Shown piece after piece: positions 33,998 to 55,119 of a stretch of 55,536 bases of DNA (position 1 is the stretch's first letter; each line of letters opens with the position of its first letter). The stretch comes from Xanthobacteraceae bacterium (GTDB lineage Bacteria > Pseudomonadota > Alphaproteobacteria > Rhizobiales > Xanthobacteraceae), in NCBI GenBank assembly GCA_030041005.1, contig JASHOR010000058.1, positions 1-55,536 on the forward strand. The letters are read 5' to 3'. The position numbers and the translations under genes were made by a program. Under the pieces are notes generated by a model, which did not search any database, had not been told where the DNA came from, and worked only from the letters and a program-made list of their open reading frames with translations.

Positions 33998-34040
33998 TCG
34001 CGATCCGCTGCTTCGCGGTCACGAGTGTGATGGACGTATC

Positions 34041-34624: not shown

Positions 34625-35632
34625 TCAGTCTGCAAGGCAGGGGCGCAAGCCCCGTTCGAGCGCGCCGCGGTCAAGACCGCGCCCGATGAACACGAGGCGG
34701 CTGCTTGAGTGATCGCCGCCCCACGGATTGGCCGGCCGGAATTCGAAGAGCCGATGTACGCCTTGCAGGACCATTCGCCGCGGATCGTCCTTAATGGCGA
34801 GGATGCCCTTGAGGCGGAAAATGTCGTCGCCGTGCCGTTCAAGCAGGCTGCTCAGGTAGGCTTCAAGTTTTTCCTTGTCGAACGCCGCTGCGAAGGTGAA
34901 CGACGCCGAGCTCAAAGATGGATCGTGCTCATGATCGTGGTCCTCAAGGAAATGGTCGTCGCTCGCCATGGTCCGCGACAGGTCGAAAGCTCCGATACCG
35001 AGGATATTCTCCAGCTGGACCTTGGCGTAGCTCGAGCGAAAGATGGATGCCGTAGCGTTCAGGCCGCGGATGCGGCCTTCGATCGACTTGATCTCGCTCT
35101 CGTCGACGAGGTCGATCTTGTTGATGATGACGCGGTCGGCGGCCACTATCTGATCGACTGCCTGGTTATCGACGCCAGCGAGCTTGGGATCGTCAAGATG
35201 TTTGCAGATATGCTTGGCGTCGACCAACGTCACGATGCCGTCGAGATTAACCTGCCGGGCGATGTCGTCGTCGATGAAAAACGTCGCAGCGACTGGGTTT
35301 GGGTCCGCCAGACCGCTGGTCTCGACCAGGATGTGATCGAATTTCTCACGGCGGCTCATGAGCTGGCCGAGGATGCGCATGAGATCGGTGCGTACGCTGG
35401 CAACACAGCAGATGCAGCCGTTGGTCATCTCAAAGATTTCCTCTTCCGAGGTCATCACCAGGTCGGAATCGATATTGATCTCGCCGAACTCGTTTTCGAT
35501 GACGGCGATCCGGTGGCCGTGCCTCTCGGTCAGGATGTAGTTGAGCAGCGTCGTTTTGCCTGAGCCCAGAAATCCTGACAGGATCGTGACCGGGACGGGA
35601 CGAGAGCCCTTTTGTTGCTCGGATGCATTCAT
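34625..35632 (-). CDS. CobW/COG0523 metallochaperone-type GTPase
   Basis: A 335-residue G3E GTPase. The P-loop is SGFLGSGKTT (about residues 19-28), the metal motif CxCC is Cys73-Ile-Cys75-Cys76, guanine specificity lies in INKID, and an acidic-histidine stretch (HFLEDHDHEHD) precedes the CobW C-terminal domain. Such proteins deliver zinc or other metals to client enzymes. The neighbours include several zinc or metal hydrolases (GuaD, the cytosine-deaminase-like protein, AllC). The ATG at 35632 is preferred to the TTG one codon earlier. The gap to the molybdenum hydroxylase gene is only 20 bp, so it is the last gene of that operon. Confidence 0.88.
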   Translation of the reverse strand: MNASEQQKGSRPVPVTILSGFLGSGKTTLLNYILTERHGHRIAVIENEFGEINIDSDLVMTSEEEIFEMTNGCICCVASVRTDLMRILGQLMSRREKFDHILVETSGLADPNPVAATFFIDDDIARQVNLDGIVTLVDAKHICKHLDDPKLAGVDNQAVDQIVAADRVIINKIDLVDESEIKSIEGRIRGLNATASIFRSSYAKVQLENILGIGAFDLSRTMASDDHFLEDHDHEHDPSLSSASFTFAAAFDKEKLEAYLSSLLERHGDDIFRLKGILAIKDDPRRMVLQGVHRLFEFRPANPWGGDHSSSRLVFIGRGLDRGALERGLRPCLAD

Positions 35633-35652
35633 CAATCGACTCCGCTCGTTGT

Positions 35653-37950
35653 TCAGGCCGCTATGCCGGGACGCGGCGCCGCTTCATTCTTCTTCCGCAG
35701 CCCGTCAAGAACTTGCTCCGGTGTGATCGGATAGTGGTGGAACCGCACGCCGATCGCATGATACACCGCATTAGCAATGGCCGGACCGATGGCGATGATC
35801 GGATCCTCGGCGATCCCTTTGGCGCCGAACGGCCCGCCCGGATTGGGCGCGGTCTCAATAATGATAGTGTGGATTGGCGGCATGTCCATTGACAGCGGCA
35901 TTTTGTAGTCGACGAAGCTCGGATTGAGCGAGTGGCCGTCCGTTGTGTCGATCACATAGTCTTCGGTGAGCGTGTGGCCGATGCCTTGCTGAATGCCGCC
36001 CTCAATCTGGCCGGCCGCCGCGACAGGATGAATTGTGCGTCCGATCTCGTGTACCGGGACGACCTTCACAACCTCGATCTGCCCGGTCTTCGTGTCGACT
36101 TTCACTTGTACGAAATGGGCGGCGAACGAATAGGACTTGGTCGGATGATAGCTCGCCGTGCCCACCAGATGTGCGGCCGGCAGGCCGAGGCGCGGCGCGA
36201 TCGCCTCGCGTACGCTGATCTGATACCCGGGCACGCCCTTGACCGAGATCATGCCGTCAGCGATGTCAAGATCGCCCGGTGCGGCTTCGAGCCGCTCGGC
36301 AGCGCGTTCCAGTAGTTGCTTCTTCACCTCGGCGGCTGCCATTTGCGCTGCCCGCCCGCCCATGAAAGTTGTGTGGCTGGCGAATGCACCGATGTCCCAA
36401 GGCGTAACGTCGGTGTCGCCGTGGACAACGCCTACGTCCTCGAACTTGACGCCGAGTTCCTCGGCCACGATTTGCGCCAGCGCTGTGTGCGCACCGGTGC
36501 CGAGCCCCGTCGTACCGGTCACCAAAGTGACGGTCCCGTCCTCGTTCATTTTGACGATCGCGTTGCCCTGCTCCTTGATGCCTGGGTAGGCGCTGCTGCC
36601 GTGCATTTCGCAACCCATGCCCCAGCCGTAGCGGATGGCGCCAGATGTCTCGTGCGCCTGCGCGCGCACCTCGGACCATTTCACTTCCGCCATGCCGCGT
36701 CTAATGCAGTCCTCCAGGCCGTGTCCGGTGACGGCATGGCCCGACGGTGCGATGTCGTCGCCGCGCACCGCATTGCGAAGCTTCAGTTCCGCCGGATCGA
36801 TCCCAAGCCGCTCCGCCGCTTCATCCATCTGGATGTCGAGCGGATAATAGCTCTGCACGCAGCCATAGCCGCGGAAGGCGCCAGCGATCGGCGTGTTGGT
36901 ATAAACGGCGCGGCCTTCGAGATGCACATTCTCGCAGCGGTACAGCGATGTAAGCGACGCCGTGCTGACGCCGGTCACGCCGGGGGCATGTGAGCCATAG
37001 GCGCCGCTGTTGAACGTCAGCAGCGCCTGCCGCGCCGTGATCGTGCCGTCCTTCTTGAATCCCTGTTTGAGCCAGACGTGGACAGGATGGCGCGAGCGGC
37101 CGCTGAGGAACGTCTCCTTGCGGCTGAGTTCCATGCGCACCGGGCGCTTGCTCTCCCTCGCCAGCAGCACGCAGAGGAATTCGTTCTGAAATAGATCCTG
37201 CTTGGCGCCGAAGCCGCCGCCCATGTGATCGACCAGGACACGGACATTGTTCAGCGGCAGGCCGAGCACCTCGGCGATGACGCCGCGGACCATGAACGGC
37301 GCCTGCGTTGAAATCCACACCGTCAGCTTGCCGTTGCCGTCCCATTGGCAGAGGCAGACGTTCGGCTCCATGTAGGCGGGCGTCGGACGGCCCCCCTTGA
37401 ATTCGCCTTCGATGATCAGATCGGCCTCGGCGAAACCGCGCTCGATGTCGCCGCGGGTGACGATGACGGGATCCATAACCAGATTGCCGCCAGGACTCGT
37501 GTCGTGGATGAGCGGAGCGTCGGGGCACAGGGCTTGCTCGACGGTGAATGCAGCCGGCAGCTTTTCATATTCGACTTCGATAAGGTCGAGCGCCTCCTCG
37601 GCGATCTCTTCGCTGATTGCGGCAACTGCGGCGACGCCTTCGCCCCAGTAGCGCACCTTGTTGTCAAGGATATATTGATCCTTCGTCACGGACGCCGAGC
37701 GCGGATGCGGCGAGCCGTAATGCAGCACGCGCGGCACGTCCTGATGGGTGAGCACAGCTTTGACGCCCGGCAGCGCCCGCGCCTTGCTGACGTCGATTTG
37801 TTTAATGCTGGCATGGGCGATGTTGCTGCGCTTGATCTTGGCGTGCAGCATGCCCGGCAGGCTCAGGTCGCCGGCATATCTGGCGAGGCCCGTGACCTTG
37901 CCGAGCGTGTCGACGCGCTTAACACTTTTGCCGACGACCGACATGTTCAT
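35653..37950 (-). CDS. Molybdenum hydroxylase large subunit (xanthine dehydrogenase family, substrate uncertain)
   Basis: A 765-residue molybdopterin subunit. It has VDHMGGGFGAKQDLFQNE, IAGAFRGYGCVQSYYP, TGTTGLGTGAHTAL (MPT binding) and GPFGAKGIAEDPII near the C-terminus, with the expected catalytic glutamate. It lacks the substrate motif QEHFYLE (it has TPAYMEP) and lacks GEPPL, both of which the bona fide XdhB at 45283 has. The three-chain layout and these differences recall aryl-CoA, nicotinate or other heterocycle hydroxylases, so xanthine should not be assumed. Its start overlaps the 2Fe-2S subunit stop (ATGA). Confidence 0.85.
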   Translation of the reverse strand: MNMSVVGKSVKRVDTLGKVTGLARYAGDLSLPGMLHAKIKRSNIAHASIKQIDVSKARALPGVKAVLTHQDVPRVLHYGSPHPRSASVTKDQYILDNKVRYWGEGVAAVAAISEEIAEEALDLIEVEYEKLPAAFTVEQALCPDAPLIHDTSPGGNLVMDPVIVTRGDIERGFAEADLIIEGEFKGGRPTPAYMEPNVCLCQWDGNGKLTVWISTQAPFMVRGVIAEVLGLPLNNVRVLVDHMGGGFGAKQDLFQNEFLCVLLARESKRPVRMELSRKETFLSGRSRHPVHVWLKQGFKKDGTITARQALLTFNSGAYGSHAPGVTGVSTASLTSLYRCENVHLEGRAVYTNTPIAGAFRGYGCVQSYYPLDIQMDEAAERLGIDPAELKLRNAVRGDDIAPSGHAVTGHGLEDCIRRGMAEVKWSEVRAQAHETSGAIRYGWGMGCEMHGSSAYPGIKEQGNAIVKMNEDGTVTLVTGTTGLGTGAHTALAQIVAEELGVKFEDVGVVHGDTDVTPWDIGAFASHTTFMGGRAAQMAAAEVKKQLLERAAERLEAAPGDLDIADGMISVKGVPGYQISVREAIAPRLGLPAAHLVGTASYHPTKSYSFAAHFVQVKVDTKTGQIEVVKVVPVHEIGRTIHPVAAAGQIEGGIQQGIGHTLTEDYVIDTTDGHSLNPSFVDYKMPLSMDMPPIHTIIIETAPNPGGPFGAKGIAEDPIIAIGPAIANAVYHAIGVRFHHYPITPEQVLDGLRKKNEAAPRPGIAA

Positions 37951-38438
37951 GGCGTGATTTCCTTGCCGGAGGAAAGTTGCTTCGCCGTGGCCGCCACCGC
38001 CTCGATGATCTTGGTATAGCCGGTGCAGCGGCAGATGTTGCCGGCGAGTGCAAAGCGGATTTCGTCCTCGGTCGGATTGGGGTTCTCATCGAGCAGGGCC
38101 TTGGCCATGACGATGATCCCCGGCGAGCAGAAGCCGCATTGCGACCCGCCGAACTTCATCATGTTTTCCTGCAACGGATGGAGGCGATCGGGTCCCGATT
38201 GAATGCCCTCGATGGTCACGACATCACCGCCGTTCACTTCGAGAGCCAAGACCAGACAGGAATTTACCGGCCTGCCGTTCAGAAGCACAGTGCAGGCGCC
38301 GCAATCACCGACATCACAGCCCTTTTTAGTCCCGGTCAATCCCGCTTCATTGCGCAGCATGTCGAGCAGGCTGCGGTACGGTTCGACCGCGAGCTCGTGA
38401 GCCTCACCATTGATCGTGACCGCGACGACCTGTTTCAC
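37947..38438 (-). CDS. Molybdenum hydroxylase 2Fe-2S subunit
   Basis: A 163-residue iron-sulfur chain with both clusters. The plant-ferredoxin site is GCDVGDCGACTVLLNG plus VNSCLVL, and the second, helical site is SQCGFCSPGIIVMAKALL with NICRCTGYTKIIEAV. GTG at 38438 is chosen because it overlaps the upstream stop as GTGA and has AGGAG eight bases before it; a GTG at 38447 would destroy that site. It passes electrons from the molybdenum chain to the FAD chain. Confidence 0.92.
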   Translation of the reverse strand: MKQVVAVTINGEAHELAVEPYRSLLDMLRNEAGLTGTKKGCDVGDCGACTVLLNGRPVNSCLVLALEVNGGDVVTIEGIQSGPDRLHPLQENMMKFGGSQCGFCSPGIIVMAKALLDENPNPTEDEIRFALAGNICRCTGYTKIIEAVAATAKQLSSGKEITP

Positions 38439-39298
38439 TGGACACACTCCTGAGCCTGCCGGATCGCGCGCGCGGTCAGCACCCGCACCATCTCGCGTCG
38501 GTACGCGGCGCTGCCGCGGATATTGCTGATCGGCCGCGACTCGTCCATGGCGGTCTGCGCCGCGGCTTCGATCAAGTCCTCGTCGAGTGCATGACCCTGC
38601 GCGAGGGCCTCAGCCTTTTTTGCCCGGATGGGCGTTGGCGCCACGGCACCGAGGACGATGCGGATTCTGCGGCAGACGGCGCCCTCGAGCGTCAGCGATA
38701 CGGCGACGCCCACCGTAGCCAGTTCCATTGCCTTGCGGCGTCCATGCTTGATGTAGATGCTGGCCGAGTGCGGCGTCACCGCGGGGAGCTCGACCGCAGT
38801 CACGATTTCGTTGGGCCGCAGCACGGTCCGGCCGGGGCCGACGAAGAAGTCTTCGAGCGCGACGCGTCGCTCGTCGCCTTCGCTGAACACCGTCACGATC
38901 GCGCCGTCGGCGATCAGCGGCGGGAGGGTGTCGGCCGAAGGCGAGGCCCGGCAGATATTGCCGACGATGGTCGCGCGGTTACGTACTTGTATGGAGCCGA
39001 CCTCGCTCGCCGCCTGCGCCAGGCCGCTGTAATCACGGCGCACGTCTGGTGAAGTCTCGATCTCGCGGGCGGTAACGAGCGAGCCGAAATTCAAGCCGGC
39101 CACCGGATCGAAAGTAAGCCGGTTCATACCCGGAATTTTCTTGATGTTGATCACATGGTCTGGCTTGCGAATCTGCTCCTTGATTTCGACCAAGAGATCA
39201 GTACCGCCGGCGAGCACGTTCGCGGTACCATTGTATCGGCTGAGCAACGCGACGGCCTCGTCCAATGTCTGCGGCTCAAAGTAGTCGAAACGCCTCAT
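38435..39298 (-). CDS. Molybdenum hydroxylase FAD-binding subunit
   Basis: A 287-residue chain with the XDH-family FAD domain: NVLAGGTDLLVEIKEQ, then GSIQVRNRATIVGNICRASPSADTLP, and the C-terminal CO-dehydrogenase-like domain with YIKHGRRKAMELATVGVAV. It accepts electrons from the iron-sulfur chain. It is the first gene of the minus-strand operon FAD - 2Fe-2S - Mo - CobW, with four-base overlaps between the subunits. Confidence 0.92.
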   Translation of the reverse strand: MRRFDYFEPQTLDEAVALLSRYNGTANVLAGGTDLLVEIKEQIRKPDHVINIKKIPGMNRLTFDPVAGLNFGSLVTAREIETSPDVRRDYSGLAQAASEVGSIQVRNRATIVGNICRASPSADTLPPLIADGAIVTVFSEGDERRVALEDFFVGPGRTVLRPNEIVTAVELPAVTPHSASIYIKHGRRKAMELATVGVAVSLTLEGAVCRRIRIVLGAVAPTPIRAKKAEALAQGHALDEDLIEAAAQTAMDESRPISNIRGSAAYRREMVRVLTARAIRQAQECVQ

Positions 39299-39397
39299 TG
39301 GTTCCGCTCGCTGTATGACAGCACGAAAGAATCGCCGGTGACGATCAGCGCGGACCGTCGATCTTCGGTGCGCATTCCGCCATCGCCGTAACCGCCG

Positions 39398-40783
39398 CTA
39401 TTCAGCGGCCACGATTTGCGTCGTCGCCGCCGGCTTGTTGTGCGCCGGCATTCCATTGAACAACAGGTTCAGGAGCACTGCCGACAATGTGCCGATCAGC
39501 ACACTGCTCTGAAACAGCGTGTTGAGCTGATGCGGCAGCTTCGAGAAAAACTGGTCGGCGACCACCGGTATCATCGCCACCGCGACGCTGACTGCGACGA
39601 TATACAGGTTGTACCGGTTGGTGGCAAAGTCGGCTTTGCTGAAGATCTTGACTCCCGTGGCCGACACCATGCCAAACATCACGATTGCCGCCCCGCCGAT
39701 GACGTAGCTCGGAATCGAGGCGGTGACAAAGGCGAGCTTCGGGAGGCAACCGAGCACGATCAGGATGACGCCCCCGGCGGCGACCGCCCACCTACTCAAT
39801 ACCCCTGTTATCTGAACCAGCCCCACATTCTGGGCAAAGGTCGTGTAAGTAAACGTGTTGAAGATGCCGCCGATAATGTTGCCAAGCCCGTCGGCCCGCA
39901 GGCCGCGGGCAAAGTCTTGTTCCGTAACAGCTCGGCCGCCCATGTCGGAAACGGCGAGGAATTGTCCCGTCGACTCGATCATCATCACGATCATGACCGC
40001 GCATAGTCCGGCGGAGGACCAAAAATCGAATACCGGAAAGCCGAACCGTAATGGCAGCACCACGGTCAGCCAGCCGGCACTCTCCACGCCGCCAAAGTTC
40101 ACACGTCCAAGCGCGATCGAGATGGCGAAGCCGATGCCGATGCCCAAAAGGACGGCGAGATTGCCTAGAAAACTCTTCATATATCGGGTCATAAGTAGGA
40201 TAGACACGAGCACGATCGCTGCGATTGCCAGATTTTCGGGCTGCCCGTAGCCGGGATTGGGAATCATGCCGTTCGGGCCATGGATCATCGGCTGTCCACC
40301 TGCCGCCCAGTTGATGCCGACGCGCATTAGCGACAGGCCGATGATCAGCATGACGGTCCCGGTCACCACGGGCGGAAAGAATCGTACCCAGCGGCCGAAG
40401 AACGGCGCGGCGAGAAAGGTGAACACGCCCGAAACGATGACCGCGCCGAACACGCCGGGCAGGCCGAGCGCGGGGTTCGATCCAGTGGCAATGATAGTCG
40501 GCACGGCGGTAAAAGCCACGCCCATCACCATCGGCAGCCTGATGCCGATGTTCAGGAACCCGACGCACTGAATGATGGTGACGATGCCGCAGACCAAGAG
40601 ATCAGCGCTGACCAACATGGCAATCTGCTCTTTCGGCAGATGCAGCGCGCCGCCGATAATGAGCGGCACGGCGGCTGCACCGGCATACATCGCGAGGACG
40701 TGTTGTAACCCGAGCATGAACAGCTTGGGTGTCGGCAGCATTTCATCGATAGGGTTGATGGCAGCGGGTGCAGACGCGTTCAT
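39398..40783 (-). CDS. NCS2 nucleobase:cation symporter, XanQ-like
   Basis: A 461-residue carrier with about 14 membrane segments. NCS2 motifs are clear: LPTPKLFMLGLQHVLAMYAGA at TM1, MIESTGQFLAVSDMGGR at TM8 with the conserved glutamate, and the signature TTFAQNVGLVQITGVLSRW in the region before TM10. The signature ends T-G, as I recall for bacterial xanthine permeases, so xanthine or urate uptake is the best guess. The ATG at 40783 follows GGAGGA; an ATG at 40795 is possible. It lies 99 bp upstream of the molybdenum hydroxylase operon on the same strand. Confidence 0.88.
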   Translation of the reverse strand: MNASAPAAINPIDEMLPTPKLFMLGLQHVLAMYAGAAAVPLIIGGALHLPKEQIAMLVSADLLVCGIVTIIQCVGFLNIGIRLPMVMGVAFTAVPTIIATGSNPALGLPGVFGAVIVSGVFTFLAAPFFGRWVRFFPPVVTGTVMLIIGLSLMRVGINWAAGGQPMIHGPNGMIPNPGYGQPENLAIAAIVLVSILLMTRYMKSFLGNLAVLLGIGIGFAISIALGRVNFGGVESAGWLTVVLPLRFGFPVFDFWSSAGLCAVMIVMMIESTGQFLAVSDMGGRAVTEQDFARGLRADGLGNIIGGIFNTFTYTTFAQNVGLVQITGVLSRWAVAAGGVILIVLGCLPKLAFVTASIPSYVIGGAAIVMFGMVSATGVKIFSKADFATNRYNLYIVAVSVAVAMIPVVADQFFSKLPHQLNTLFQSSVLIGTLSAVLLNLLFNGMPAHNKPAATTQIVAAE

Positions 40784-40932
40784 GAGTTCCTCCATACCCA
40801 TTTTTGTTGGTTGCCCGTCTCAGGCCACCGCGCCTCCACCGAAGAGGCGCGGCGATTTGCGCGACAGGTCCCGCCGCACCCGGGTCGATGACGCGAAAGA
40901 TATCCGATGCCTTGCCGTTCTTCCGCCATTCG

Positions 40933-41850
40933 TCAGGCGACCGGCGCCGGCGCCTTACCGCTTAGACGAACCTTCGCCTCCTCGACGGTTTTCGGTGGCT
41001 TGGTCGGCTTGATACCGAGGAGCTTCGCGACGTTGTTGCCCATGAAGCCTTCTAGATCGTCTTCGCTGAGGTTCATGCCTTGCGGAGGAGGACTGCACAG
41101 CACTTCGAGCTCGCGTAGCCACATGCCCGGCTCATTCGGTGGCGAGTCGGTGCCGAACACGATCTTGTGGCGCGGCAGTTCCTTGGCAAATTCGACAATG
41201 CGCGATTGCAGGCACCAGCCAGATTCAACATAGACGTTCGGATTATCCATCGCCATCCAGAAAGCCTCGAAGCAATAGACGCCGCCGGTCTGGATGCCGA
41301 AGTGGCCGATGATGAAATTAACATTCCGGAATTCGCGGATGATCGGATAGAACTGAGTCGGGATGCTGTAGGGTCCGTCGCCGGTGTGGATCAGAACCAC
41401 GACGCCGAGCTCATCGCACTTGCGCATCGCCGGCCGCAACCAGTCGAGCGCCCGGTCGGGCCGGTATGAGTGCATGTTGGCGTGCAGCTTGAGCATCTTG
41501 AAGCCGTATTCCTTGACGTGGAATTCCAGCTCCGCCGCGCCGTTCTCCGGCCCAAAGCGTGGGTTATAGGTGAAATTACCGATGAAGCGGTCGGGATATT
41601 TCTGCGTAAGCTCGGCGATGTAGGCCATGTAATCGCGGATGCCTTCGCGGCCGGTGCGATTGCCCTCACGCCACGCGGTATTCCCCGGCGGCGGCTGAAT
41701 TAGCCCCATGTCAATGCGACGCGGCTTGCCATTGATGTAGTACGGCCCGTCCATCAGCTTTAGCATGCGCTCGCCATTAAACGGCGTGCCGTCGTGCCGC
41801 CAGGCCTCGTCGACGAGGTTGGTCGGATGAAGATGGGTATCAATGATCAT
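40933..41850 (-). CDS. Amidohydrolase-2 family metalloenzyme (hydrolase or decarboxylase)
   Basis: A 305-residue TIM-barrel protein of the amidohydrolase-2 group. Metal and catalytic residues visible are MIIDTHLHP (HxH), KMLKLHANMHSYRPD, VVLIHTGDGP, NFIIGHFGIQTGG and KIVFGTDSPPNE. This group includes ring-cleaving hydrolases and non-oxidative decarboxylases such as iso-orotate and gamma-resorcylate decarboxylases. The product is unassigned. AAGGAGCG precedes the ATG at 41850. It stands between the NCS2 permease and the broken transporter locus. Confidence 0.82.
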   Translation of the reverse strand: MIIDTHLHPTNLVDEAWRHDGTPFNGERMLKLMDGPYYINGKPRRIDMGLIQPPPGNTAWREGNRTGREGIRDYMAYIAELTQKYPDRFIGNFTYNPRFGPENGAAELEFHVKEYGFKMLKLHANMHSYRPDRALDWLRPAMRKCDELGVVVLIHTGDGPYSIPTQFYPIIREFRNVNFIIGHFGIQTGGVYCFEAFWMAMDNPNVYVESGWCLQSRIVEFAKELPRHKIVFGTDSPPNEPGMWLRELEVLCSPPPQGMNLSEDDLEGFMGNNVAKLLGIKPTKPPKTVEEAKVRLSGKAPAPVA

Positions 41851-42682: not shown

Positions 42683-42742
42683 TGACCCGTGCTCCCCGTT
42701 GGCGCGAACCTGCACCGTCGCCCCGTCAGCACCGTCCCACAG

Positions 42743-42771
42743 GCTTCCTGTATCACATCTGTGTGGGAAGC
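42743..42771. promoter_or_regulatory. Candidate LysR autoregulatory dyad
   Basis: GCTTCC (42743-42748) is the exact inverse complement of GGAAGC (42766-42771) with 17 bp between. Overlapping it, CCCACAG (42736-42742) is inverted as CTGTGTGGG (42759-42767) with a two-base insertion. The site ends 10 bp before the LysR start and faces the NCS2 remnant, the usual place for LysR binding. The assignment is by symmetry and position only. Confidence 0.35.
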
Positions 42772-42781
42772 GAGAACCGCC

Positions 42782-43726
42782 ATGACAAAGTCCCAGCTCT
42801 CGCGCGAACAATTGTGCCGCATCCTCTATGCCCCCAATCTCAACTATTTCGTTGCGGTGACGGAGGCCGGCTCGATCCGAGAAGCCTCGCGCCGACTCAA
42901 TATCTCGCCCTCGGCGGTTAGCCGTCAGATTCTGCAGCTCGAAGAGGCCGTCGGCGTACCCCTGTTCGAGCGGCTCGGCAGCAAGCTCCGCATATCCGCG
43001 GCGGGCACTGCGCTGTTGCGCCATTGCACGGCGGTGCTGCGTAATCTCGAAGCGACCGTTGCTGAAATCGACGCCTTACAGGAATTGCGCACAGGCGTCG
43101 TGCGTGTGGGCACCGTCGAAAGCGCGTCAATCAGTCTGCTGCCGACGCTGATCGAATTGTTCGCAGCGGAGTATCCGTTGATCCATGTCAGCGTCGTCAT
43201 GGGGTCCGCCGAGTCGGTCGCGGACAGTATTGCCGAGGGGCGCGCTGACATTGGCTTCGCGTTCAATCCGCTGCACACCGATCGGTTCAAGATCCACCTA
43301 CGCAAGCAATATTCGCTCGGCGCCGTGGCCTCGAGAGACCACCCGCTGGCGCGGTCGGCGAAAGTCAGCATGTCGGAATGTCTCAAGCTGCCACTGGTGT
43401 TGCCGGCGACCGGCCTGTCGATCCGCGCCACACTCGATCGCGTCATCGGTCGCCACGCCAACGAACTGCGCGCTTTCATCGAGACCAATTCCCTGAATTT
43501 CATGAATCGACTGCTGCAACGAGGGAAGTTCGTCGGCATCCAGACGCAGCTTGGCATCGAGGATCTGCTCAAAACGGGCGCCTTGGTGTTCGTCGAACTC
43601 GCCGAACCGGGCCTCGGGGTCGAGGAGTTCGCCGTCATTACTGACGCGCACTCGACGCTCAGTCTCGCGGCGCAGACCTTTCTGGATCATGCTTTGGCGG
43701 CCCTGCCGCCGCTCTTGAGGCTGTAA
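42782..43726 (+). CDS. LysR-family transcriptional regulator
   Basis: A 314-residue regulator. The winged helix is in residues 17-80 (LNYFVAVTEAGSIREASRRL, NISPSAVSRQILQLEEAVG, VPLFERLGSKLRIS). A two-lobed effector domain follows, with LRTGVVRVGTVESASISLLP and EGRADIGFAFNPLH. It sits between the broken NCS2 gene and the xdhABC operon, so it likely controls purine uptake and xanthine oxidation. The ATG at 42782 begins the charged leader before the helix-turn-helix. Confidence 0.92.
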   Translation: MTKSQLSREQLCRILYAPNLNYFVAVTEAGSIREASRRLNISPSAVSRQILQLEEAVGVPLFERLGSKLRISAAGTALLRHCTAVLRNLEATVAEIDALQELRTGVVRVGTVESASISLLPTLIELFAAEYPLIHVSVVMGSAESVADSIAEGRADIGFAFNPLHTDRFKIHLRKQYSLGAVASRDHPLARSAKVSMSECLKLPLVLPATGLSIRATLDRVIGRHANELRAFIETNSLNFMNRLLQRGKFVGIQTQLGIEDLLKTGALVFVELAEPGLGVEEFAVITDAHSTLSLAAQTFLDHALAALPPLLRL

Positions 43727-47666: not shown

Positions 47667-48665
47667 ATGGCAGAGGTTTGGACCCGCATTCGGGAGACGA
47701 TCGAACGGCATGGCAACGCCGCGCTGGTGAGCGTGATCGCCGCTGCCGGGTCGGCGCCGCGCGAGGCGGGGGCGCGAATCGTGATGCAGCCGAATGGCGC
47801 CTTCTTCGGCACTATCGGCGGCGGCAGGCTGGAATATGAGGCGCTGGCGGAGGCGCGCGTTGCATTGGCCGCCGGCCGCGGCGGCGCGCAATTCCGCGAC
47901 TGGCCGCTCGGGCCGAATCTCGGCCAGTGCTGCGGCGGCATGGTGACGACGCTGATCGAGACATTCGACGGCAGCGATCTCGCGACCGTTCGTCAGCTTG
48001 AGGCGGCGGAGAAATCGGGCGTTTTCACGGTGGCGAGCCGTGTGGGCGATGACGGACGCATCGTTCGTACGCCCGCAGAGCCGGCCACCGCCAATCCGAT
48101 CAAGACCGCAGGCAAGAGCAACAAGCGTGGCGGCAAGTTGTCATTCCGCGAAGAGTTCGGCAAAGCGGCGAAACAGGTGCTGTTGTTCGGCGCCGGCCAT
48201 GTCGGCCGGGCTCTGGTTCTGGCGTTGGCGCCGCTGCCGTTCGCCGTGCGCTGGATCGACAGCCGCCCTGACCAGTTCCCGCAATACGTCCCGCAGAACG
48301 TCGTCATCGTCCACCACCCCGAGGTCGATCGTGAATTGGCGCAAGCGCCGTCCGACAGCGTCGTCATCGTCATGACGCACTCGCATCCGCTCGACTACGA
48401 CATCGCGCTCAAAGCGCTCAAGCGCGGCACGTTCGATTTCGTTGGTTTGATCGGGTCGCAGACCAAGCGGGCGCGGTTCGTCAGCCTGGCGCGCCAGTTG
48501 GGCGTTGCCGACGCCACGATCGATCGTCTTGTTTGTCCGATCGGCCTGCCGCAGATCAAAGGCAAGGAGCCCGCCGTGATTGCCGCGGGCATTGCCGCGC
48601 AGATCCTCATGATCGGCCGGCGTGCCGAAGCACCCGCGACGGGAAACGCGATGCAACCAGCATGA
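47667..48665 (+). CDS. xdhC: Xanthine dehydrogenase accessory protein XdhC
   Basis: A 332-residue maturation factor with an N-terminal XdhC/CoxI domain (VSVIAAAGSAPREAGARIVM, GTIGGGRLEYEAL, GPNLGQCCGGMVTTLIE, containing the MPT-binding Gln-Cys) and a C-terminal Rossmann domain (VLLFGAGHVGRALVLALAPLP, MTHSHPLDYDIALKAL, LIGSQTKRARFV). It binds sulfurated molybdenum cofactor and inserts it into XdhB. It is the third gene of the operon, 32 bp after xdhB, and converges with the UbiD gene. Confidence 0.95.
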   Translation: MAEVWTRIRETIERHGNAALVSVIAAAGSAPREAGARIVMQPNGAFFGTIGGGRLEYEALAEARVALAAGRGGAQFRDWPLGPNLGQCCGGMVTTLIETFDGSDLATVRQLEAAEKSGVFTVASRVGDDGRIVRTPAEPATANPIKTAGKSNKRGGKLSFREEFGKAAKQVLLFGAGHVGRALVLALAPLPFAVRWIDSRPDQFPQYVPQNVVIVHHPEVDRELAQAPSDSVVIVMTHSHPLDYDIALKALKRGTFDFVGLIGSQTKRARFVSLARQLGVADATIDRLVCPIGLPQIKGKEPAVIAAGIAAQILMIGRRAEAPATGNAMQPA

Positions 48666-48678: not shown

Positions 48679-50028
48679 TCAGCGCAATTGACGCGAAATC
48701 ACGCTGCGCGCCCAGGCGACTGATTCCGCAGTTTGTCGCGTGCGTTCGCCCTCGAAATTCGGTGGCTTTGTTGCATCGATCGCAACTTTCGCCGACATGC
48801 CCTCGACGGAGGACGGATCGAGCCGGTTGCAGAACACCTTCGGCACCACGAACATGTCGGTATCGGCCTGGAATCGGGTCGCCAGCGCCCACAGCACTTC
48901 GTCCTCGTTGAAGACGTCTATGTCATCGTCGACCGCCACGGCGAGCTTGACGTAGGAGTCGAGCCCCATCAGCATCATCAAAGCCTGACGCGCCTGACCT
49001 TCGGCGGTTTTCTTGAACGACATATAAGCGTGGAAATGCACGCCGGTTTTCGGATAGCTCACCGCCCTGAGCGTCGGCACCATTTCGCGCAGCCGGTGGG
49101 TGACGTGGGCCTCGCGGGTGCAGCGGCTGAGCAGCAGATGCTCCGCCGAATAGCCGGGAATGATGTCGAGGAAGATCGGCTTGCGCTTATGCGTGATCGC
49201 CTTGACGATGAAGACGTTACGGGTAGAGCGGTGGGTCGAATAGCCGGTATATTCGCCATAAGGTCCCTCGTCCTCGTGAACGCCGGCGAGAATTTCTCCT
49301 TCAATGACGTACTCGGCGTCGGCTGGCACTTCGATGTCGATGGTCTTGCATTTGACGAGCTTGACCGGCTCGCGCATCAGCGCGCCGGCGACTTCCAGCT
49401 CGTCAGTCTCCATGGCAACCTTTGCCGCCGCCGCGATGTAGATCGCCGGATGACAACCGATCACCACCGCCACTTCCATGTTCTTACCGCGCGCCTCGCA
49501 GCGCAAAAGGTGATCCCAGATGTGGCCGCGCGAGTGCAGGCTGGCACCGAAGCGGTTCGGTCCCTTGAGCTGCATGCGCTGAAAGCTGAGATTGCGCACG
49601 CCGGTGTCCGGGTCCTTACAGATCAGGATGCCGGACCCGATGTAGCGCCCGGCATCCGCCTCGAAATGCCGTGAGATCGGCAGTTGTCCAGCGTCGACCT
49701 CATTGGCGAGCATGACCACCTCGTGCACCGGCGCCCGGTCAGTCATCACCGCAGGCGCGAGATTGGCAAGCGCGCGAGACCAAGCTTGACCGAACCCGCC
49801 GGGCTTGGCGCCGACCATGCGCGCGATGCGGTCGCGATCTGCAAAAAGATTTGTCACCACCGGAACGTCGAAACCATTCGAGCGCTCGATCACGACGACC
49901 GGAAATCGCTTTTGCGCCTCCAATTCAAGCACCAGCGAGGTCGGACAGAAATCCAGATTGACCGGCTCGGAGAGGACGAATTTTTCGTTCTCCGGCAGGC
50001 TGTCGATGTAGCTTTTGAGATCGTGCAT
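48679..50028 (-). CDS. UbiD-family (prenylated-FMN) decarboxylase
   Basis: A 449-residue UbiD-fold enzyme. It has LQRMQLKGPNRFGASLHSRG in the cofactor region, AVVIGCHPAIYIAAAAKV, and the catalytic region EDEGPYGEYTGYST at about residues 252-266 with both glutamates retained. UbiD enzymes reversibly decarboxylate alpha,beta-unsaturated, aromatic or heteroaromatic acids with prenyl-FMN from UbiX. No ubiX gene is in the window. GAGGAG precedes the ATG. It follows the ThDP alpha and beta genes on the same strand after 116 bp, so the three probably form one pathway unit. The substrate is not known. Confidence 0.88.
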   Translation of the reverse strand: MHDLKSYIDSLPENEKFVLSEPVNLDFCPTSLVLELEAQKRFPVVVIERSNGFDVPVVTNLFADRDRIARMVGAKPGGFGQAWSRALANLAPAVMTDRAPVHEVVMLANEVDAGQLPISRHFEADAGRYIGSGILICKDPDTGVRNLSFQRMQLKGPNRFGASLHSRGHIWDHLLRCEARGKNMEVAVVIGCHPAIYIAAAAKVAMETDELEVAGALMREPVKLVKCKTIDIEVPADAEYVIEGEILAGVHEDEGPYGEYTGYSTHRSTRNVFIVKAITHKRKPIFLDIIPGYSAEHLLLSRCTREAHVTHRLREMVPTLRAVSYPKTGVHFHAYMSFKKTAEGQARQALMMLMGLDSYVKLAVAVDDDIDVFNEDEVLWALATRFQADTDMFVVPKVFCNRLDPSSVEGMSAKVAIDATKPPNFEGERTRQTAESVAWARSVISRQLR

Positions 50029-50144
50029 GGTGCTCCTCGGCAGGGCGCGTTGGCCCGGTGTTTTGCCCGATCTCTACACGAGACTGCGGGTTTGTCGAAC
50101 CGGATTACGGGATTTGCGATCGTCCCGTTGCGGTGCGCGCGACG

Positions 50145-50756
50145 TCAATTGTGCTCGCTCGGGCCCATGATCACGACACCCTCGGTCGCTTCCACGTGGC
50201 GTACGAAGATGTACTTGTCTTCACGTCCGTCACTGTGCTTGCGCTTGATATCGCGGCGGACCTGCTTGTCGACCTTCGCCACGATCACCGTAAGCGCCTG
50301 CGTCGCCAAGGCGTCGTCGCAGCGGTGGTTAAACTCATCGAGATCGTGCACCGCATAAGCGCGCTCAATGCCCGCGCCACGTGCGATTGCAGCAAGATCG
50401 ACGATGCCAGACGCGGTATGTGTCGGCGGGCCGCCGATCGACTGGTAACATTCGTTGTCCCAGACGACGACCAGGAGATTTTGTGGCCGTTCGTTGGCGA
50501 GGGTCGCCAGAATGCCAAGGTTGAACAGCATGCCGCCGTCAGTGTCGAGCGCGACGATGCGCCGGTGCGGCAAACCGACGGCAAGTCCGAAGGCCTCTGG
50601 AGTCACGCAGCCGAGCTGTTGTTGGAACAGGCTCCCATTCCGCATGTGGGGCGCGGCATTGTACCATTCGTCAACGCTGGCGCCGAGCGAAAGGATCACA
50701 AGCTCGTCCTTGAGCTTGCCAGCGAGCACGGTCATGCAGTCGTATCGGGTCATCAT
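50145..50756 (-). CDS. ThDP-dependent decarboxylase, beta (PP-domain) subunit, second copy
   Basis: A 203-residue partner of the chain encoded at 50753-51259. The PP-domain order is clear (QQLGCVTPEAFGLAVGLPHR, then LFNLGILATLANERPQN). The cofactor motif departs from the canonical Gly-Asp-Gly: here it is Thr72-Asp73-Gly74 (ALDTDGGMLFN), with Asn101 in WDNECYQSIGGPPT. The equivalent protein at 24014 has Gly-Asp-Gly. The alpha stop overlaps the beta start by four bases. It probably decarboxylates a 2-oxo acid in the same pathway as the UbiD enzyme. Confidence 0.8.
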   Translation of the reverse strand: MMTRYDCMTVLAGKLKDELVILSLGASVDEWYNAAPHMRNGSLFQQQLGCVTPEAFGLAVGLPHRRIVALDTDGGMLFNLGILATLANERPQNLLVVVWDNECYQSIGGPPTHTASGIVDLAAIARGAGIERAYAVHDLDEFNHRCDDALATQALTVIVAKVDKQVRRDIKRKHSDGREDKYIFVRHVEATEGVVIMGPSEHN

Positions 50757-51259
50757 CGCACGATGCTCCCGGACAAGACGATGGCGGAGTGATAATAGGC
50801 TGTGTGCGCCCAGGTGAAGGCGTCGTGCACTGCCTGCGCGATGTCTTCTTCACGATCGACCAGCCGATAGGGTATGCGCATCGCCTGGAGCAGCGGTTCC
50901 ATAGTCATGCCGTGCGGGATTGCCCACCAGTTGTTCTCGCCGAGGTCGCCGCGATAGCTCATCAACATCACCACCGGGATGCCTGCGCCCATGCCCATGC
51001 GCGCTAGCGGCTCGATCGAAGCGCGCAGGCCGGAATTTTCCATCACCAACACGGCGCGCTTGCCCGAAAGCCAGACGCCGCCGCAGATCGCTGCGCCCTC
51101 ACCTTCATTGGTGACGCGGATGGTACGGATCTCGTTGTCGTGGTCGAGCGCCGGATAGAGCTCCTTGAAGAGCGAATCCGGTAGATAGCACGCGATGGTG
51201 ACCCCTGCGGTCTTCAGGGCCTTAATGATTGTGTCGACGACGCTAGCTCGCATTGTCAT
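50753..51259 (-). CDS. ThDP-dependent decarboxylase, alpha (PYR-domain) subunit, second copy
   Basis: A 168-residue pyrimidine-binding domain. IIKALKTAGVTIACYLPDSL, Glu52 in IRVTNEGEGAAICGG and VLVMENSGLRASIEPLARMG are typical. It aligns over its length with the chain at 23493 and is clearly diverged from it. GAGGA precedes the ATG at 51259. Gene order alpha, beta, UbiD on the minus strand faces an NCS2-UbiD operon on the plus strand. Confidence 0.8.
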   Translation of the reverse strand: MTMRASVVDTIIKALKTAGVTIACYLPDSLFKELYPALDHDNEIRTIRVTNEGEGAAICGGVWLSGKRAVLVMENSGLRASIEPLARMGMGAGIPVVMLMSYRGDLGENNWWAIPHGMTMEPLLQAMRIPYRLVDREEDIAQAVHDAFTWAHTAYYHSAIVLSGSIVR

Positions 51260-51729
51260 TCATCATCCTCGCCTTGCTGCCTTCTGCAGCATCTCCTACC
51301 CAGTATCGGCGCCGCGTGCTGTTTCTGTATGCGCCGCTGTTTCCAAATAGTGAACAGGTGGAAAAGAACGAGCCCTGCCGATAACTTCCATAGCAAGATT
51401 CGAACTTTGATCCCTACGAAGTTGATGCCATTTCAATAACAACGAAGGCATAATTCCAGCAACACCTGTCTGAATGATGTACATGCGATCGCGTGTGAAG
51501 CTCGACGAAGGCAAGTGCGCGAGACAAAACCGCGCAACACGAAAAAAATCCAGCGCAGTATCCAAAAATCTGTAGTCACGGTTGCCCGACGACTGTCTCT
51601 TCCATATGCTTCGATCTTCAGTAGCGCGCCGTACGAGACCTGCGCGATCGACTGCTAAAATAAACCGGGTGCAGCAAAGCCGGCCCAAATTAGAATCGGA
51701 TCGGACGGCAGGAGAGGGGAGAAGACGCC
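51260..51729. other. 470-bp low-GC divergent intergenic region
   Basis: The stretch is clearly poorer in GC than its flanks. A minus-strand frame of 161 codons (51296-51781) crosses most of it but overlaps the NCS2 start and matches nothing I know, so I do not call it a gene. No riboswitch fold was recognised. It should hold the promoters of both flanking operons, and may contain the remains of a lost regulator gene. Confidence 0.45.
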
Positions 51730-53079
51730 ATGAGCCAAATGGAGAAATCCACCGCTTTTGATCCAGTCGACGCGGTACCATCGGCGGGACAACTGGGCGC
51801 GCTCGGCTTGCAGCATCTTTTCGTGATGTACGCCGGCACAGTGGCGGTGCCCTATGTCATCGGCCGCGCGCTTGGCATGTCGGGCGTAGACATCGCGCAG
51901 ATGATTTCGGCGAACACGATCTTTGCCGGACTTGGCACGATCCTCACCACCATTGGCATGTGGAAGTTCGGCGCCCGGCTGCCGATCGTGCTCGGGCCTT
52001 CCGCCAACGTGATCGGTCCGCTGATCATCATCGGCAAGAGCTACGGGCTGGCGACGGTCTGGAGCACCTGCGTCATGGCTGGCGCGGCGATGATAATCTG
52101 CGCGCCGTTCATCGGCCGGCTGCGGCGATTCTTTCCGCCGGTGGTCATGGGCACGATGTTGGCGCTGGTCGGCATCATGCTGGTGCCAATCGGGGTCCGC
52201 CTGATCACCAATTTCAAGCCGGAGCAGCCGGTGCTAGCGGTCAACCTGGTAATGGCAGCCGGAACAGTTGCGATCGTCGGGCTGCTGATGCGATTTTTGC
52301 CACAAACGTTGCGCCAAGCTGCGATCCTGCTAGGCCTCGTCGTCGCAACCTTTATCGCCTACCTGTTCGGGCGCGCCGATTTCAGCCACGTGTTGCAAGG
52401 TGCATTGTTCGGCTTCTCGATCCCGTCGCACTTCGGACAATTCGATTTCGATATCACGGCCGCGATCTCGGTCATCATCCTGATGGTCGTGTTGATGTTT
52501 GAGGTTTTGCCGCAACTTGTTGCGGTCGGCGAGATGGTCGGCCGCCAAGCGACCGGCGAGCACGTGCAGGGCGGTATTCTGGCCGACGGGCTCACCAGCC
52601 TCATCGGGGGCCTATTCGGTGCGTTTCCGCTGGTGACCTTTTCGCAGAATATCGGCGTCCTCGGGCTGACGCGCACTCGCAGCCGCTATATCGCGACCGC
52701 CGCCGGCGTGTTCCTTGTGATACTCGGCCTGTTTCCGCCGCTTGGTCGACTGGTTGCGGCGATCCCTGGGCCGATCATCGGCGGAATAGCACTGGTGATG
52801 TTTACAGCGATTGGAGTCGTCGGCATCAAGATTCTCAATCGCGTCGACTTGGGCGATCCGCAAAATCTGTTCATTGTGGCGACCTCGCTCGGCGTCGGCT
52901 TCATTCCCATGGTAGCGCCGAATTTCTACAACTCTTGGCCCAAGGACCTGCAAACGATCCTCAACAGCCCTGTGGGCGCCGGATTGTTAGTCGCCATCCT
53001 GCTTAATCTGTTGTTCAATCATCTGCCTGGGATGGCTCCGGCTGAGGAGATTGCGGCCAAGGATAAGGCGGCGGCGTGA
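51730..53079 (+). CDS. NCS2 nucleobase:cation symporter, second copy
   Basis: A 449-residue carrier with about 14 hydrophobic segments. The TM1 region is LGALGLQHLFVMYAGTVAVP, the TM8 glutamate lies in VLMFEVLPQLVAVGEMVGRQ, and the signature is FPLVTFSQNIGVLGLTRTRSRY. The signature ends T-R, unlike the T-G of the carrier at 39398, which suggests another substrate range. A GGAGAGGGGAG ribosome binding site precedes the ATG. The UbiD gene follows within the same transcript, so the imported ring compound may be a carboxylated or UbiD-processed heterocycle; this is inference. Confidence 0.88.
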   Translation: MSQMEKSTAFDPVDAVPSAGQLGALGLQHLFVMYAGTVAVPYVIGRALGMSGVDIAQMISANTIFAGLGTILTTIGMWKFGARLPIVLGPSANVIGPLIIIGKSYGLATVWSTCVMAGAAMIICAPFIGRLRRFFPPVVMGTMLALVGIMLVPIGVRLITNFKPEQPVLAVNLVMAAGTVAIVGLLMRFLPQTLRQAAILLGLVVATFIAYLFGRADFSHVLQGALFGFSIPSHFGQFDFDITAAISVIILMVVLMFEVLPQLVAVGEMVGRQATGEHVQGGILADGLTSLIGGLFGAFPLVTFSQNIGVLGLTRTRSRYIATAAGVFLVILGLFPPLGRLVAAIPGPIIGGIALVMFTAIGVVGIKILNRVDLGDPQNLFIVATSLGVGFIPMVAPNFYNSWPKDLQTILNSPVGAGLLVAILLNLLFNHLPGMAPAEEIAAKDKAAA

Positions 53080-53132
53080 TCGCACAGCAGCCGTTGCCGC
53101 AACGAGACGCGTCCAAGCAATATAGTGGTCAC

Positions 53133-54497
53133 ATGGCGAGCAATTCCGTCGACGACCTGCGCAGCTTCATCGAAGTGCTGCGCCAGGCGCACGCGATTCA
53201 CGAGTTCACCACGGAGATCGATCCGGTCCATGAGCTCGGCGCGGTGCTGCGTGCCTGCGAGCAGGAAGGGAAGGCGGCGCTATTCCACAATGTGAAGGGT
53301 GCACATATGCCGGTGCTCGGCAGCGCGCTTGGCTCGCACGAGCGCATCGGGCTCGCGATCGGTTGTGATCGCGAGAAGATAAGTAATGTGCTCGAGGCGG
53401 CGACCGAGGCGCCGATCCCGTTCCGGGAGATCGATGGCCCGGCCCCGTGCCAGGAAGTCGTCACCGATAATGTTGATCTCGCAACGCTGCCAATTCCAGT
53501 CCACGCGCCAAAGGATGGCGGCGCATTTCTCAATGCAGGCGTCGTCATTGGCCGCGATCCGGTGAGCGGACGCCACAACCTCTCCTACGTGCGGATGCAG
53601 GTTAAGGGGGCAGACCGCGTCGGGATCAATCTCAATACCTGGCGCCACCTGCGGGAATTCTTCGAGACGGCGGAAGCAAACGGATGCAATCTGCCGTTTT
53701 GCGTCGCCATCGGCGTCGATCCGGTTCTGATGATCGCCGCTGCCTTCCGCTATGACGGCGATGAATACGAGATCGCAGGTGCGCTGCGTGGCAAGCCGAC
53801 GCCGGTAGTTCGGGCGCGAACCTGCGACATCATGGTGCCGGCCACTGCGGAAATCGTGCTTGAAGGCGAAATCCTGGCTGGCGGCCGCGAGGACGAAGGC
53901 CCGATGGCCGAATATACCGGCCACTATTCGGGCATCCATCCGCAACCCGTCGGCCGTATCAGCACCATCACGCGGCGTTGCCGCCCGATCTTCCAGACTA
54001 CTGCGGGCGCTTCGTTCGAACATCTTCTTCTCGGCACCGCCGTGACGCGAGAGCCCAAACTCAAGCGGTTGACGATGAGCACGTCACCGCGAGTTCGCGA
54101 CGCCTATTTGCCACCCTACGCCTCCGGTTTCCTCGCGCTTATCGCAATGGACAATCCGCGGCCTGGCGAAGTGCGCGCGGTCGGACTCGCCGCGCTGACC
54201 TCGCATGTCAACATCAATACCGTCATAATCGTCGACAGCGACGTCGATATTTTCAATCCGACTGAGGTGTTCTGGGCAATGTCGACGCGTGTCCGATGGG
54301 ACCGCGATCAAGTGGTGATCCCACGTACGCTCGGCAACGAACTACACCCATCAGCCGACCGCACCGGCGAGATCAGCAAAAGCATTATCGACGCGACTCT
54401 CGACCAGACGCTACGCAATTCTTACAGCAAGATCGTCTATCCGAAGGTCGATCTGGCCAAGCTACTGGCTGCTGAATCGAGCAAAAAAACATCGTGA
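53133..54497 (+). CDS. UbiD-family (prenylated-FMN) decarboxylase, second copy
   Basis: A 454-residue enzyme starting at ATG 53133. A GTG at 53076 overlapping the permease stop (GTGA), with AAGG-rich sequence upstream, would add 19 residues and cannot be excluded. UbiD features are VDLATLPIPVHAPKDGGAF, SYVRMQVKGADRVGINLN, and EDEGPMAEYTGHYSG at about residues 253-267, again with both glutamates. It shares family but clearly not identity with the enzyme at 48679, so the two probably act on different acids or form a hetero-oligomer. The cofactor source (UbiX) is not in the window. Confidence 0.88.
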   Translation: MASNSVDDLRSFIEVLRQAHAIHEFTTEIDPVHELGAVLRACEQEGKAALFHNVKGAHMPVLGSALGSHERIGLAIGCDREKISNVLEAATEAPIPFREIDGPAPCQEVVTDNVDLATLPIPVHAPKDGGAFLNAGVVIGRDPVSGRHNLSYVRMQVKGADRVGINLNTWRHLREFFETAEANGCNLPFCVAIGVDPVLMIAAAFRYDGDEYEIAGALRGKPTPVVRARTCDIMVPATAEIVLEGEILAGGREDEGPMAEYTGHYSGIHPQPVGRISTITRRCRPIFQTTAGASFEHLLLGTAVTREPKLKRLTMSTSPRVRDAYLPPYASGFLALIAMDNPRPGEVRAVGLAALTSHVNINTVIIVDSDVDIFNPTEVFWAMSTRVRWDRDQVVIPRTLGNELHPSADRTGEISKSIIDATLDQTLRNSYSKIVYPKVDLAKLLAAESSKKTS

Positions 54498-54549: not shown

Positions 54550-55119
54550 TTACAATCCCGTATCCCGGATCGGCCGCTGGAACGCTAGGCCGGTATCCCA
54601 CGGGAAATAAATCCAGGTGTCCTGCGACACTTCGGTAACGAACGTGTCGACCATGGGGCGGCCCATGGGCTTGGCATACACGGTGGCGAAATGAGCGTGC
54701 GGCAAGAGCGCGCGCACGATCCTCGCGGTCTGTCCGGTATCGACCAGATCATCGACAATGAGCACGCCCGTCCCCTGTCCACCGAGGCTGGCAAGCCCAG
54801 GTGATACGTCCTTGAGCACCCTCAGAGCGCCTTGCGTGATGTGGTCATAGCTTGCCACGCAAACGGTCTCGATCAACCGGATGCCGAGTTCGCGCGCTAC
54901 GATTGCCGTTGGCACGAGGCCGCCGCGGGTAATGCAGACGATGGCCCCGAACGGCCCTGCGTCGCTCAAGCGCCAGGCAAGCGCACGGGAATCGCGGTGA
55001 AACTGGTCCCAAGAGACCGGAAAAGCTTTTTCCGGCCGTCGGGCTGCGGAGGTCGTCGGCGCGCTGGTGCCGCCGTTCGTTGTTGCTCCCCCCTGATGCA
55101 AGCGATCTAATTCTGGCAT
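54550..55119 (-). CDS. gpt: Xanthine phosphoribosyltransferase
   Basis: A 189-residue type I phosphoribosyltransferase. The PRPP loop is [18 protein letters not shown], the hood region includes [17 protein letters not shown], and [16 protein letters not shown] forms the Gpt C-terminus. It converts xanthine or guanine and PRPP to XMP or GMP and so salvages the bases that the neighbouring pathway would degrade. A 35-residue threonine/alanine-rich N-terminal extension is unusual; translation may start lower down. It is convergent with the UbiD gene. Confidence 0.9.

Follow-up and report, generated by a model that had tools for sequence, protein, structure and literature searches.

What, if anything, joins five neighbouring genes in which two UbiD-type decarboxylases, a two-subunit thiamine diphosphate (ThDP) enzyme and an NCS2 carrier lie next to xanthine dehydrogenase genes? 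They occupy positions 48679-54497 of contig JASHOR010000058.1 (assembly GCA_030041005.1) from a Xanthobacteraceae bacterium; all 55,536 nucleotides of this stretch were analysed and are called the window here. An earlier note, made from the letters of the sequence, had placed the five genes in one pathway. Judging from gene context, we favour another reading, to which we give a probability of roughly 0.4: UbiD1 would work with a block of cobW, XdhLSM, NCS2a and AH2 genes as a variant of a conserved module (M1) in a probably acquired purine island, an imidazole-type acid would be decarboxylated, and the ThDP pair would be separate.

The five-gene locus

The five genes and their immediate neighbours are as follows.

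48679-50028, minus strand: UbiD1, 449 amino acids, HmfF-like decarboxylase of the prenylated flavin mononucleotide (prFMN) type; Pfam UbiD, 221 bits
50145-50756, minus strand: ThDP beta, 203 amino acids; Pfam PF02775 (TPP_enzyme_C)
50753-51259, minus strand: ThDP alpha, 168 amino acids; Pfam PF02776 (TPP_enzyme_N)
51730-53079, plus strand: NCS2b carrier, 449 amino acids; Pfam PF00860 (Xan_ur_permease), 280 bits
53076-54497, plus strand: UbiD2, divergent UbiD decarboxylase, 473 amino acids; Pfam UbiD, 200 bits
43809-48665, plus strand: xdhA, xdhB and xdhC (xanthine dehydrogenase and maturation), left of the minus arm
54550-55119, minus strand: gpt-like phosphoribosyltransferase (Pfam Pribosyltran), right of the plus arm

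All five open reading frames (ORFs) were selected by the codon score. They stand where the earlier note had put them, on the same strands and with the same divergence, and Pfam bore out their families. Its placement of the locus between xdhABC and gpt agrees with the TIGR and Pfam matches: xdhA and xdhB passed the TIGR02963 and TIGR02965 cut-offs, respectively, and XdhC domains were found at 47667-48665 (Pfam). The purine context implied by its nucleobase-type carrier and UbiD decarboxylases is likewise borne out by the surrounding gene families. In the minus arm, ThDP alpha is followed by beta with a 4-base overlap and then, after 116 bases, by UbiD1; this looks like a single transcription unit with the ThDP pair upstream. 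In the plus arm, the GTG start of UbiD2 overlaps the NCS2b stop by 4 bases, and 470 bases separate the two arms.

UbiD_N, UbiD and UbiD_C domains are over the Pfam cut-offs in both UbiD proteins. From an alignment to HmfF and motif positions, the E-R-E triad was assigned to R151, E254 and E259 in UbiD1 and to R173, E274 and E279 in UbiD2; the triad of the family is named in PMC8988006, and the residue assignment is our own. The best solved relative of both is 6h6v (326 bits for UbiD1, with AnInD next at 175; 270 bits for UbiD2), which is PtHmfF (PMC8988006). HmfF is a 2,5-furandicarboxylate decarboxylase with which the E-R-E positions align, but no furan-pathway annotation was found among the window genes scanned, and their context is purine catabolism.

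A conserved module and its counterpart in the window

In the loci that we read, plasmid-borne relatives of UbiD1 (about 41% identity) belong to a recurrent cluster of AHs1 and AHs2 (both Amidohydro_2), UbiD, UbiX, CobW and NCS2, often accompanied by XdhM-S-L and sometimes by XdhC or a cytosine-deaminase-like protein. We define module M1 as AHs1, AHs2, UbiD, UbiX, CobW and NCS2, often with XdhMSL. The gene calls used for several loci described below (L063, G438, L014, the loci nearest the window's ThDP pair, the two other Chloroflexota loci and the relatives' EPSP-synthase loci) at times take the wrong strand. AHs1, AHs2 and UbiD were present in all ten module loci scanned, CobW and NCS2 in nine each, and UbiX in all ten, one of these being a 41% piece at the locus edge. 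XdhL was found at ≥70% identity in six loci, at 23-25% in three others and not at all in one; a deaminase was present in 4/10 and the ThDP pair in 0/10. The presence of UbiD and AH2 in these loci is by construction, because UbiD led us to seven of them and AH2 to the other three (L193-L195).

Among 72,556 plasmid records, the module UbiD (E ≤ 1e-100) matched 92 and AH2 (E ≤ 1e-20) matched 91. Their genus counts, which compare totals by genus and not record by record, were equal except in Paracoccus (6 vs. 5). AH2 matched 182 places in its 91 records, with the best place at 80-90% identity in 90 of them and at 60-80% in one. In a search of 398 genomes of the phylum, in which at most five candidates per genome were scored and relatives may have been missed, AH2 was found in four: the window's own genome, with one copy, and three others with two copies each and an adjacent UbiD. 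One AHs1 match among these two-copy genomes was reported with one internal stop. The window's own genome gave one AH2-type match at E ≤ 1e-60, with 5 of 15 candidates scored.

Positions 34625-41850 of the window hold predicted M1 counterparts of CobW, XdhMSL, NCS2 and AHs2, and these are the stronger candidate partners of UbiD1, although they lie outside the five-gene locus.

34625-35635, minus strand: CobW-type GTPase (Pfam cobW, CobW_C)
35653-37950, minus strand: XdhL, molybdenum subunit of a molybdenum (Mo) hydroxylase (Pfam)
37947-38447, minus strand: XdhS, 2Fe-2S subunit of the Mo-hydroxylase (Pfam)
38435-39298, minus strand: XdhM, FAD subunit of the Mo-hydroxylase (Pfam)
39398-40801, minus strand: NCS2a, xanthine-permease type (TIGR03173, 518 bits)
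40933-41850, minus strand: AH2, Amidohydro_2 enzyme (Pfam PF04909)

Identities to the module on pSymB of Sinorhizobium meliloti, which also holds UbiD and UbiX, are 61% for CobW, 74% for XdhL, 71% for XdhS, 60-61% for XdhM, 72% for NCS2a and 86% for AH2. The likely start of AH2 is at MIIDTHLH instead of at 42012, and its H-x-H motif and other checked positions are intact.

The draft genome (4.9 Mb) has 19 UbiD-domain matches, two of them in this locus, versus one UbiX; the sole TIGR00421 (UbiX) match over the cut-off is on contig C105, outside the window. Of the 19, UbiD1 matches the module UbiD best, with 320 bits against 291 for the runner-up. The nearest relatives of UbiD1 found, with at most four candidates per genome scored and relatives possibly missed, are a protein of genome G120 (58%), the UbiD of Anaerolineaceae contig L063 (49%) and others at about 44% or less. 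In the UbiD tree, UbiD1 and the G120 protein pair at 100/99, and they group at 88/92 with the L063 UbiD and the module clade, the inner fork being open. One row of that tree (L044) is a wrong reading frame on a very long branch and is to be ignored; another (L037, from genome G035) is placed in the module group by sequence alone. The module UbiD fitted the Glu pattern used for the triad but not the Arg pattern.

Simple orthology between UbiD1 and the module UbiD was considered and rejected, given 38-42% identity and a position outside the module clade. We call it a module variant because the other module genes are kept and because it is the closest of the 19, yet it falls outside the clade, lies 7 kb from the block and lacks AHs1 and UbiX beside it.

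A further association of UbiD with purine genes, the third, is found in genome G438. One 20 kb stretch there carries a UbiD 41% identical to UbiD1, a CDA-type deaminase, NCS2 (37%), PuuE (65%) and a class V aminotransferase, together with xdhA, xdhB, an OHCU-related gene, an AllG-type protein, a sodium/proton exchanger and a sensor kinase. A UbiD of this type is present in two more genomes of the genus.

In all ten module loci (L041-L044, L149-L151 and L193-L195), the H-x-H motif of AHs1 is replaced by S-x-Y and a conserved K by Q. H-x-H is kept in AHs2 and in the window AH2, and AHs1 is probably a conserved pseudo-enzyme partner of intact AHs2.

A candidate purine-type route

UbiD1 may decarboxylate a heteroaromatic acid, probably one of imidazole type, as part of a purine-type route similar to the xanthinase pathway of clostridia. 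In such a route, a purine-type base would be imported by NCS2 and optionally oxidised by the Mo-hydroxylase. A metal amidohydrolase would open the ring hydrolytically, and UbiD, with prFMN supplied by UbiX, would decarboxylate the resulting imidazole-type carboxylate. The order of steps is our proposal, and the life style that we infer is aerobic.

This chemistry has precedent, since another UbiD acts weakly on an imidazole carboxylate and the xanthinase route has an intermediate of this kind. According to PMC7976604, HudA converted 1.3% of imidazole-4-carboxylate, and PMC3519856 describes passage of the clostridial route through 4-ureido-5-imidazolecarboxylate. According to PMC12507026, the purine ring is opened by hydrolysis in that route, hydrolytic and decarboxylative steps follow, and the gene cluster is known; the cluster is attributed there to Tong et al. 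2023. The resemblance to the route proposed for M1 lies in these steps. The clostridial pathway is reported, in the same paper, from Clostridia and Bacilli, whereas the module occurs in Proteobacteria and includes a Mo-hydroxylase and CobW.

We found no paper on module M1 or its function in an open-access library, beyond which papers may exist. The decarboxylase of the clostridial route is reportedly prFMN-dependent. From its tag number, we take S. meliloti SMb20132 to belong to the pSymB module. This gene has one expression value in an expression table (PMC12542648).

If the favoured reading is true, it would give a function to the S. meliloti pSymB module and bring prFMN decarboxylases into purine breakdown by Proteobacteria that live in soil or with plants. 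It would also provide a genetically tractable host for finding the substrate of these UbiD enzymes. A broader version holds that Proteobacteria including S. meliloti have a uricase-independent prFMN route of purine ring opening and imidazole carboxylate decarboxylation, using a metal amidohydrolase and its paralog without H-x-H, and that the window holds a rearranged variant, to which a ThDP step is added and which is embedded in a purine island of the oxidative kind. We regard this version as unlikely.

Several observations weigh against the role that we favour for UbiD1. The island already contains a complete-looking urate route. AHs1 and UbiX are not in the window, UbiX being on another contig, and about 7 kb containing LysR and xdhABC separates UbiD1 from the 34625-41850 block. 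UbiD1 is 38-42% identical to the module UbiDs, which are themselves 60-78% identical to the one from Shinella. Even a module-type UbiD can stand apart: the one in genome G035 (67% to that of Shinella) had no other gene of our query panel on its 12 kb contig. The same was true of the G120 relative in 11.8 kb, where the neighbours resemble, by eye, flavin monooxygenases, an enoyl-CoA hydratase and transport proteins. In the window's own genome, a UbiD of the wider clade (38%; locus L014) has, as read by eye, F420-type genes as its neighbours. Because AHs1 lacks H-x-H in 10/10 module loci, the idea that AHs1 and AHs2 each catalyse one of two ring-opening steps is weakened, and a pair of separate ring-opening hydrolases is unsupported. 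For the xanthinase pathway we claim no more than a resemblance in described chemistry.

Some of the same observations would fit unlinked modules gathered in a purine-rich island, with the UbiDs acting on unrelated (hetero)aromatic acids, the ThDP pair serving its own deaminase-linked pathway, and their proximity accidental. Nineteen UbiD matches in one genome make chance neighbours possible, no further panel gene lies near the closest relative of UbiD1, and the ThDP pair falls in one group with four deaminase-ThDP loci (see below), in a family with UbiD near 1 of 80 pairs. However, on plasmids the genus counts of AH2 are almost those of the module UbiD, AH2 is kept at 86%, and both window UbiDs lie within 13 kb of it. 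We see accidental proximity as a real possibility, but lean against it.

The ThDP pair is a purine-associated element

Relatives of the ThDP pair were sought by scanning species genomes for one of two peptide patterns; 80 of the 109 found were analysed, 10 of them with short flanks. Neighbours were counted in the fetched flanks within 10 kb at E ≤ 1e-10 with 40% of the query covered. The 80 relatives were 73-85% identical to the window pair, and alpha was accompanied by beta in every locus. A deaminase-family gene was present in 76/80 loci, a Rieske-type gene in 71, a GMC oxidoreductase in 69, a xanthine-dehydrogenase-type Mo subunit in 61 and an aldehyde dehydrogenase in 59. Matches to guaD_R included cross-hits to other amidohydrolases, and their count is left aside. 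NCS2, UbiX and AH2 were each found near none of the 80 pairs and a UbiD-like gene near one, which speaks against a five-gene unit. In 16 comparison loci, a non-random sample, the Mo subunit was found in none and a deaminase and a ThDP subunit in one each; by eye, L014, one of these loci, has a terminal piece resembling the Mo subunit, too short to count.

On contig L063, a row of genes runs from BMP-type ABC genes through UbiD (49%) to ThDP alpha and beta. In the Chloroflexota, a ThDP match at E ≤ 1e-40 was found in 3/301 genomes, that of L063 included, and the other two loci contain Mo-hydroxylase genes but gave no UbiD match. The ThDP-UbiD link is thus rare. The pair is purine-associated, a separate element normally near deaminase-family genes, and with 109 relatives found it is a widespread component of purine-type gene clusters.

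In R. tumorigenes, the cluster includes, besides guanine deaminase and Rieske proteins, a set of BMP-type ABC genes and a pucC/pucD-like fusion. A widespread cluster seen in L045, L046 and most of L053-L132, and also in Rhodococcus, combines guanine-deaminase-like, Rieske, GST-like, GMC, aldehyde dehydrogenase, Mo-hydroxylase, BMP ABC and ThDP genes. Breakdown of pterins, cytokinins or methylxanthines was considered as a candidate role for the Rieske-type ThDP clusters. In the ThDP tree, the window pair groups with four CDA-deaminase loci without a Rieske match (98/90, a starred value with the bootstrap not settled), and three further loci of the CDA-deaminase type fall elsewhere. Alignments showed a beta C-terminal tail common to close relatives (7 rows) and an invariant E52 in alpha (5 rows).

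Two known activities were compared with the pair. ComDE sulfopyruvate decarboxylase likewise is a ThDP enzyme of two subunits, with its domains divided between them in the same way, and both ComDE models match the window pair, but under the equivalog cut-offs (104.3 vs. 147.95 bits for TIGR03845; 103.4 vs. 221.5 bits for TIGR03846); moreover, most of the 80 relatives have purine-type genes as neighbours. A glyoxylate carboligase role was also considered. That enzyme is described as lacking the catalytic Glu, which is kept in ThDP alpha (E52).

The neighbours of the ThDP relatives could be read as a side-chain route, for instance for the breakdown of pterin-like compounds or substituted purines: the pair would make an aldehyde from a heteroaryl 2-oxo acid by decarboxylation, oxidation by a Mo-hydroxylase or an aldehyde dehydrogenase would turn it into a carboxylate, and UbiD would remove that group. 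The frequent aldehyde dehydrogenase, GMC and Mo subunit genes would suit this, as would the UbiD directly before the pair in L063. However, the four loci nearest the window's pair (L053, of 4 kb only, L054, L102 and L104) gave neither an aldehyde dehydrogenase nor a GMC match and carry a CDA-type deaminase, the three longer ones also LysR and ABC genes; the substrate itself is a proposal from gene context. We consider this route quite improbable.

UbiD2 has only relatives of about 40% identity. At E ≤ 1e-75, one genome among 384 others of the class gave a match, in a search that scored no more than four candidates per genome and may have missed relatives; plasmid records gave 21, all below 60%. 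In the pathway of the earlier note, the UbiDs would decarboxylate a ring compound taken up from outside, and the ThDP pair would act on a 2-oxo acid product. We consider this very unlikely: the genes do overlap or stand tightly spaced within each arm, and L063 lines up transport, UbiD and ThDP genes, but no other locus with the five genes was found, NCS2 was found near none and UbiD near one of the 80 pairs, the two distant Chloroflexota pairs have no UbiD match, and class genomes and plasmid records gave no close relative of UbiD2. The neighbourhood search that the note had set beforehand thus failed to bring the five genes together at ThDP-pair loci, and we rejected them as a unit on co-occurrence across those 80 loci. 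Its remark that no described pathway has this gene set has held: we found no paper on the set in an open-access library, and UbiD was never paired with thiamine in our queries.

Two NCS2 carriers

The window encodes two NCS2 proteins that are 36% identical. NCS2a is over the TIGR03173 cut-off of 414.15 bits, and NCS2b, at 389.1 bits, is under it, in which it differs from the xanthine/urate permeases of the PbuX group. Both share with that group a Q-N-x-G motif (QNIGVLGLTR at 306 in NCS2b), which we take to be of the xanthine/urate (purine) type.

The purine region and its probable acquisition

The five genes are part of a larger region, about 23.5-54.5 kb, that is mostly purine-related and that the span 48679-54497 cuts through. 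Its remaining landmarks are listed here.

22921-22995, plus strand: tRNA-Thr(GGT) (ARAGORN), left edge of the probable island
23493-24580, plus strand: second ThDP alpha/beta pair, downstream of tRNA-Thr
30970-34511, plus strand: oxidative purine route of urate oxidase, PuuE-like protein, OHCU decarboxylase-HIUase fusion and CDA-type deaminase (Pfam)
42689-43726, plus strand: LysR regulator (Pfam)

From the tRNA, the order is second ThDP pair, amidohydrolase, NMT1-type ABC transporter, DUF3830 and M20 peptidase; then urate oxidase, PuuE-like protein, OHCU-HIUase fusion, CDA-type deaminase, cobW, three-subunit Mo-hydroxylase and NCS2a; then the Amidohydro_2 protein, LysR, xdhABC and the five-gene locus. 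In the fusion, a single protein at 33110-33997 joins the OHCU decarboxylase and HIUase/transthyretin domains (Pfam). The alpha subunit of the second ThDP pair scores 23.9 bits with TPP_enzyme_N, under the cut-off of 26.8, and is 33% identical to ThDP alpha; its beta partner, ORF 24014-24580, was read by eye. The adjoining amidohydrolase (24645-26024) is about 30% identical to a cytosine-deaminase-like protein of S. meliloti. Together with the NMT1-type ABC genes, this composition is like that of small deaminase-ThDP loci.

The right end of the island is out of view because the contig ends. To the left, the stretch of EPSP-synthase gene and tRNA was matched in 23/25 genomes searched, the window's own included. 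A scan of seven relatives' loci with the window proteins gave no island genes at the EPSP-synthase gene, except for two weak cross-hits. Five of the seven have tRNA-Thr: three (the congeners G007 and G009, and G040 from another family) with about 17 kb beyond it, and two, both congeners, with flanks of just 0.3 and 3.6 kb. UbiD1 was matched at E ≤ 1e-90 in 0/19 same-genus genomes, several of them incomplete, and XdhL at E ≤ 1e-200 in 1/61 genomes, the window's own. From these observations we infer that the purine-catabolism region was probably acquired horizontally, as an island downstream of tRNA-Thr.

No second copy of the tRNA-Thr 3' end was found within the window as an integration repeat; an integrase was not searched for. 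Partial second tRNA-Thr matches do occur about 1-4 kb from the full copy in three other genomes, as 5' parts on G006 C76 and as 3' parts on G009 C76 and G012 C114, and these might be remnants of a repeatedly used integration site.

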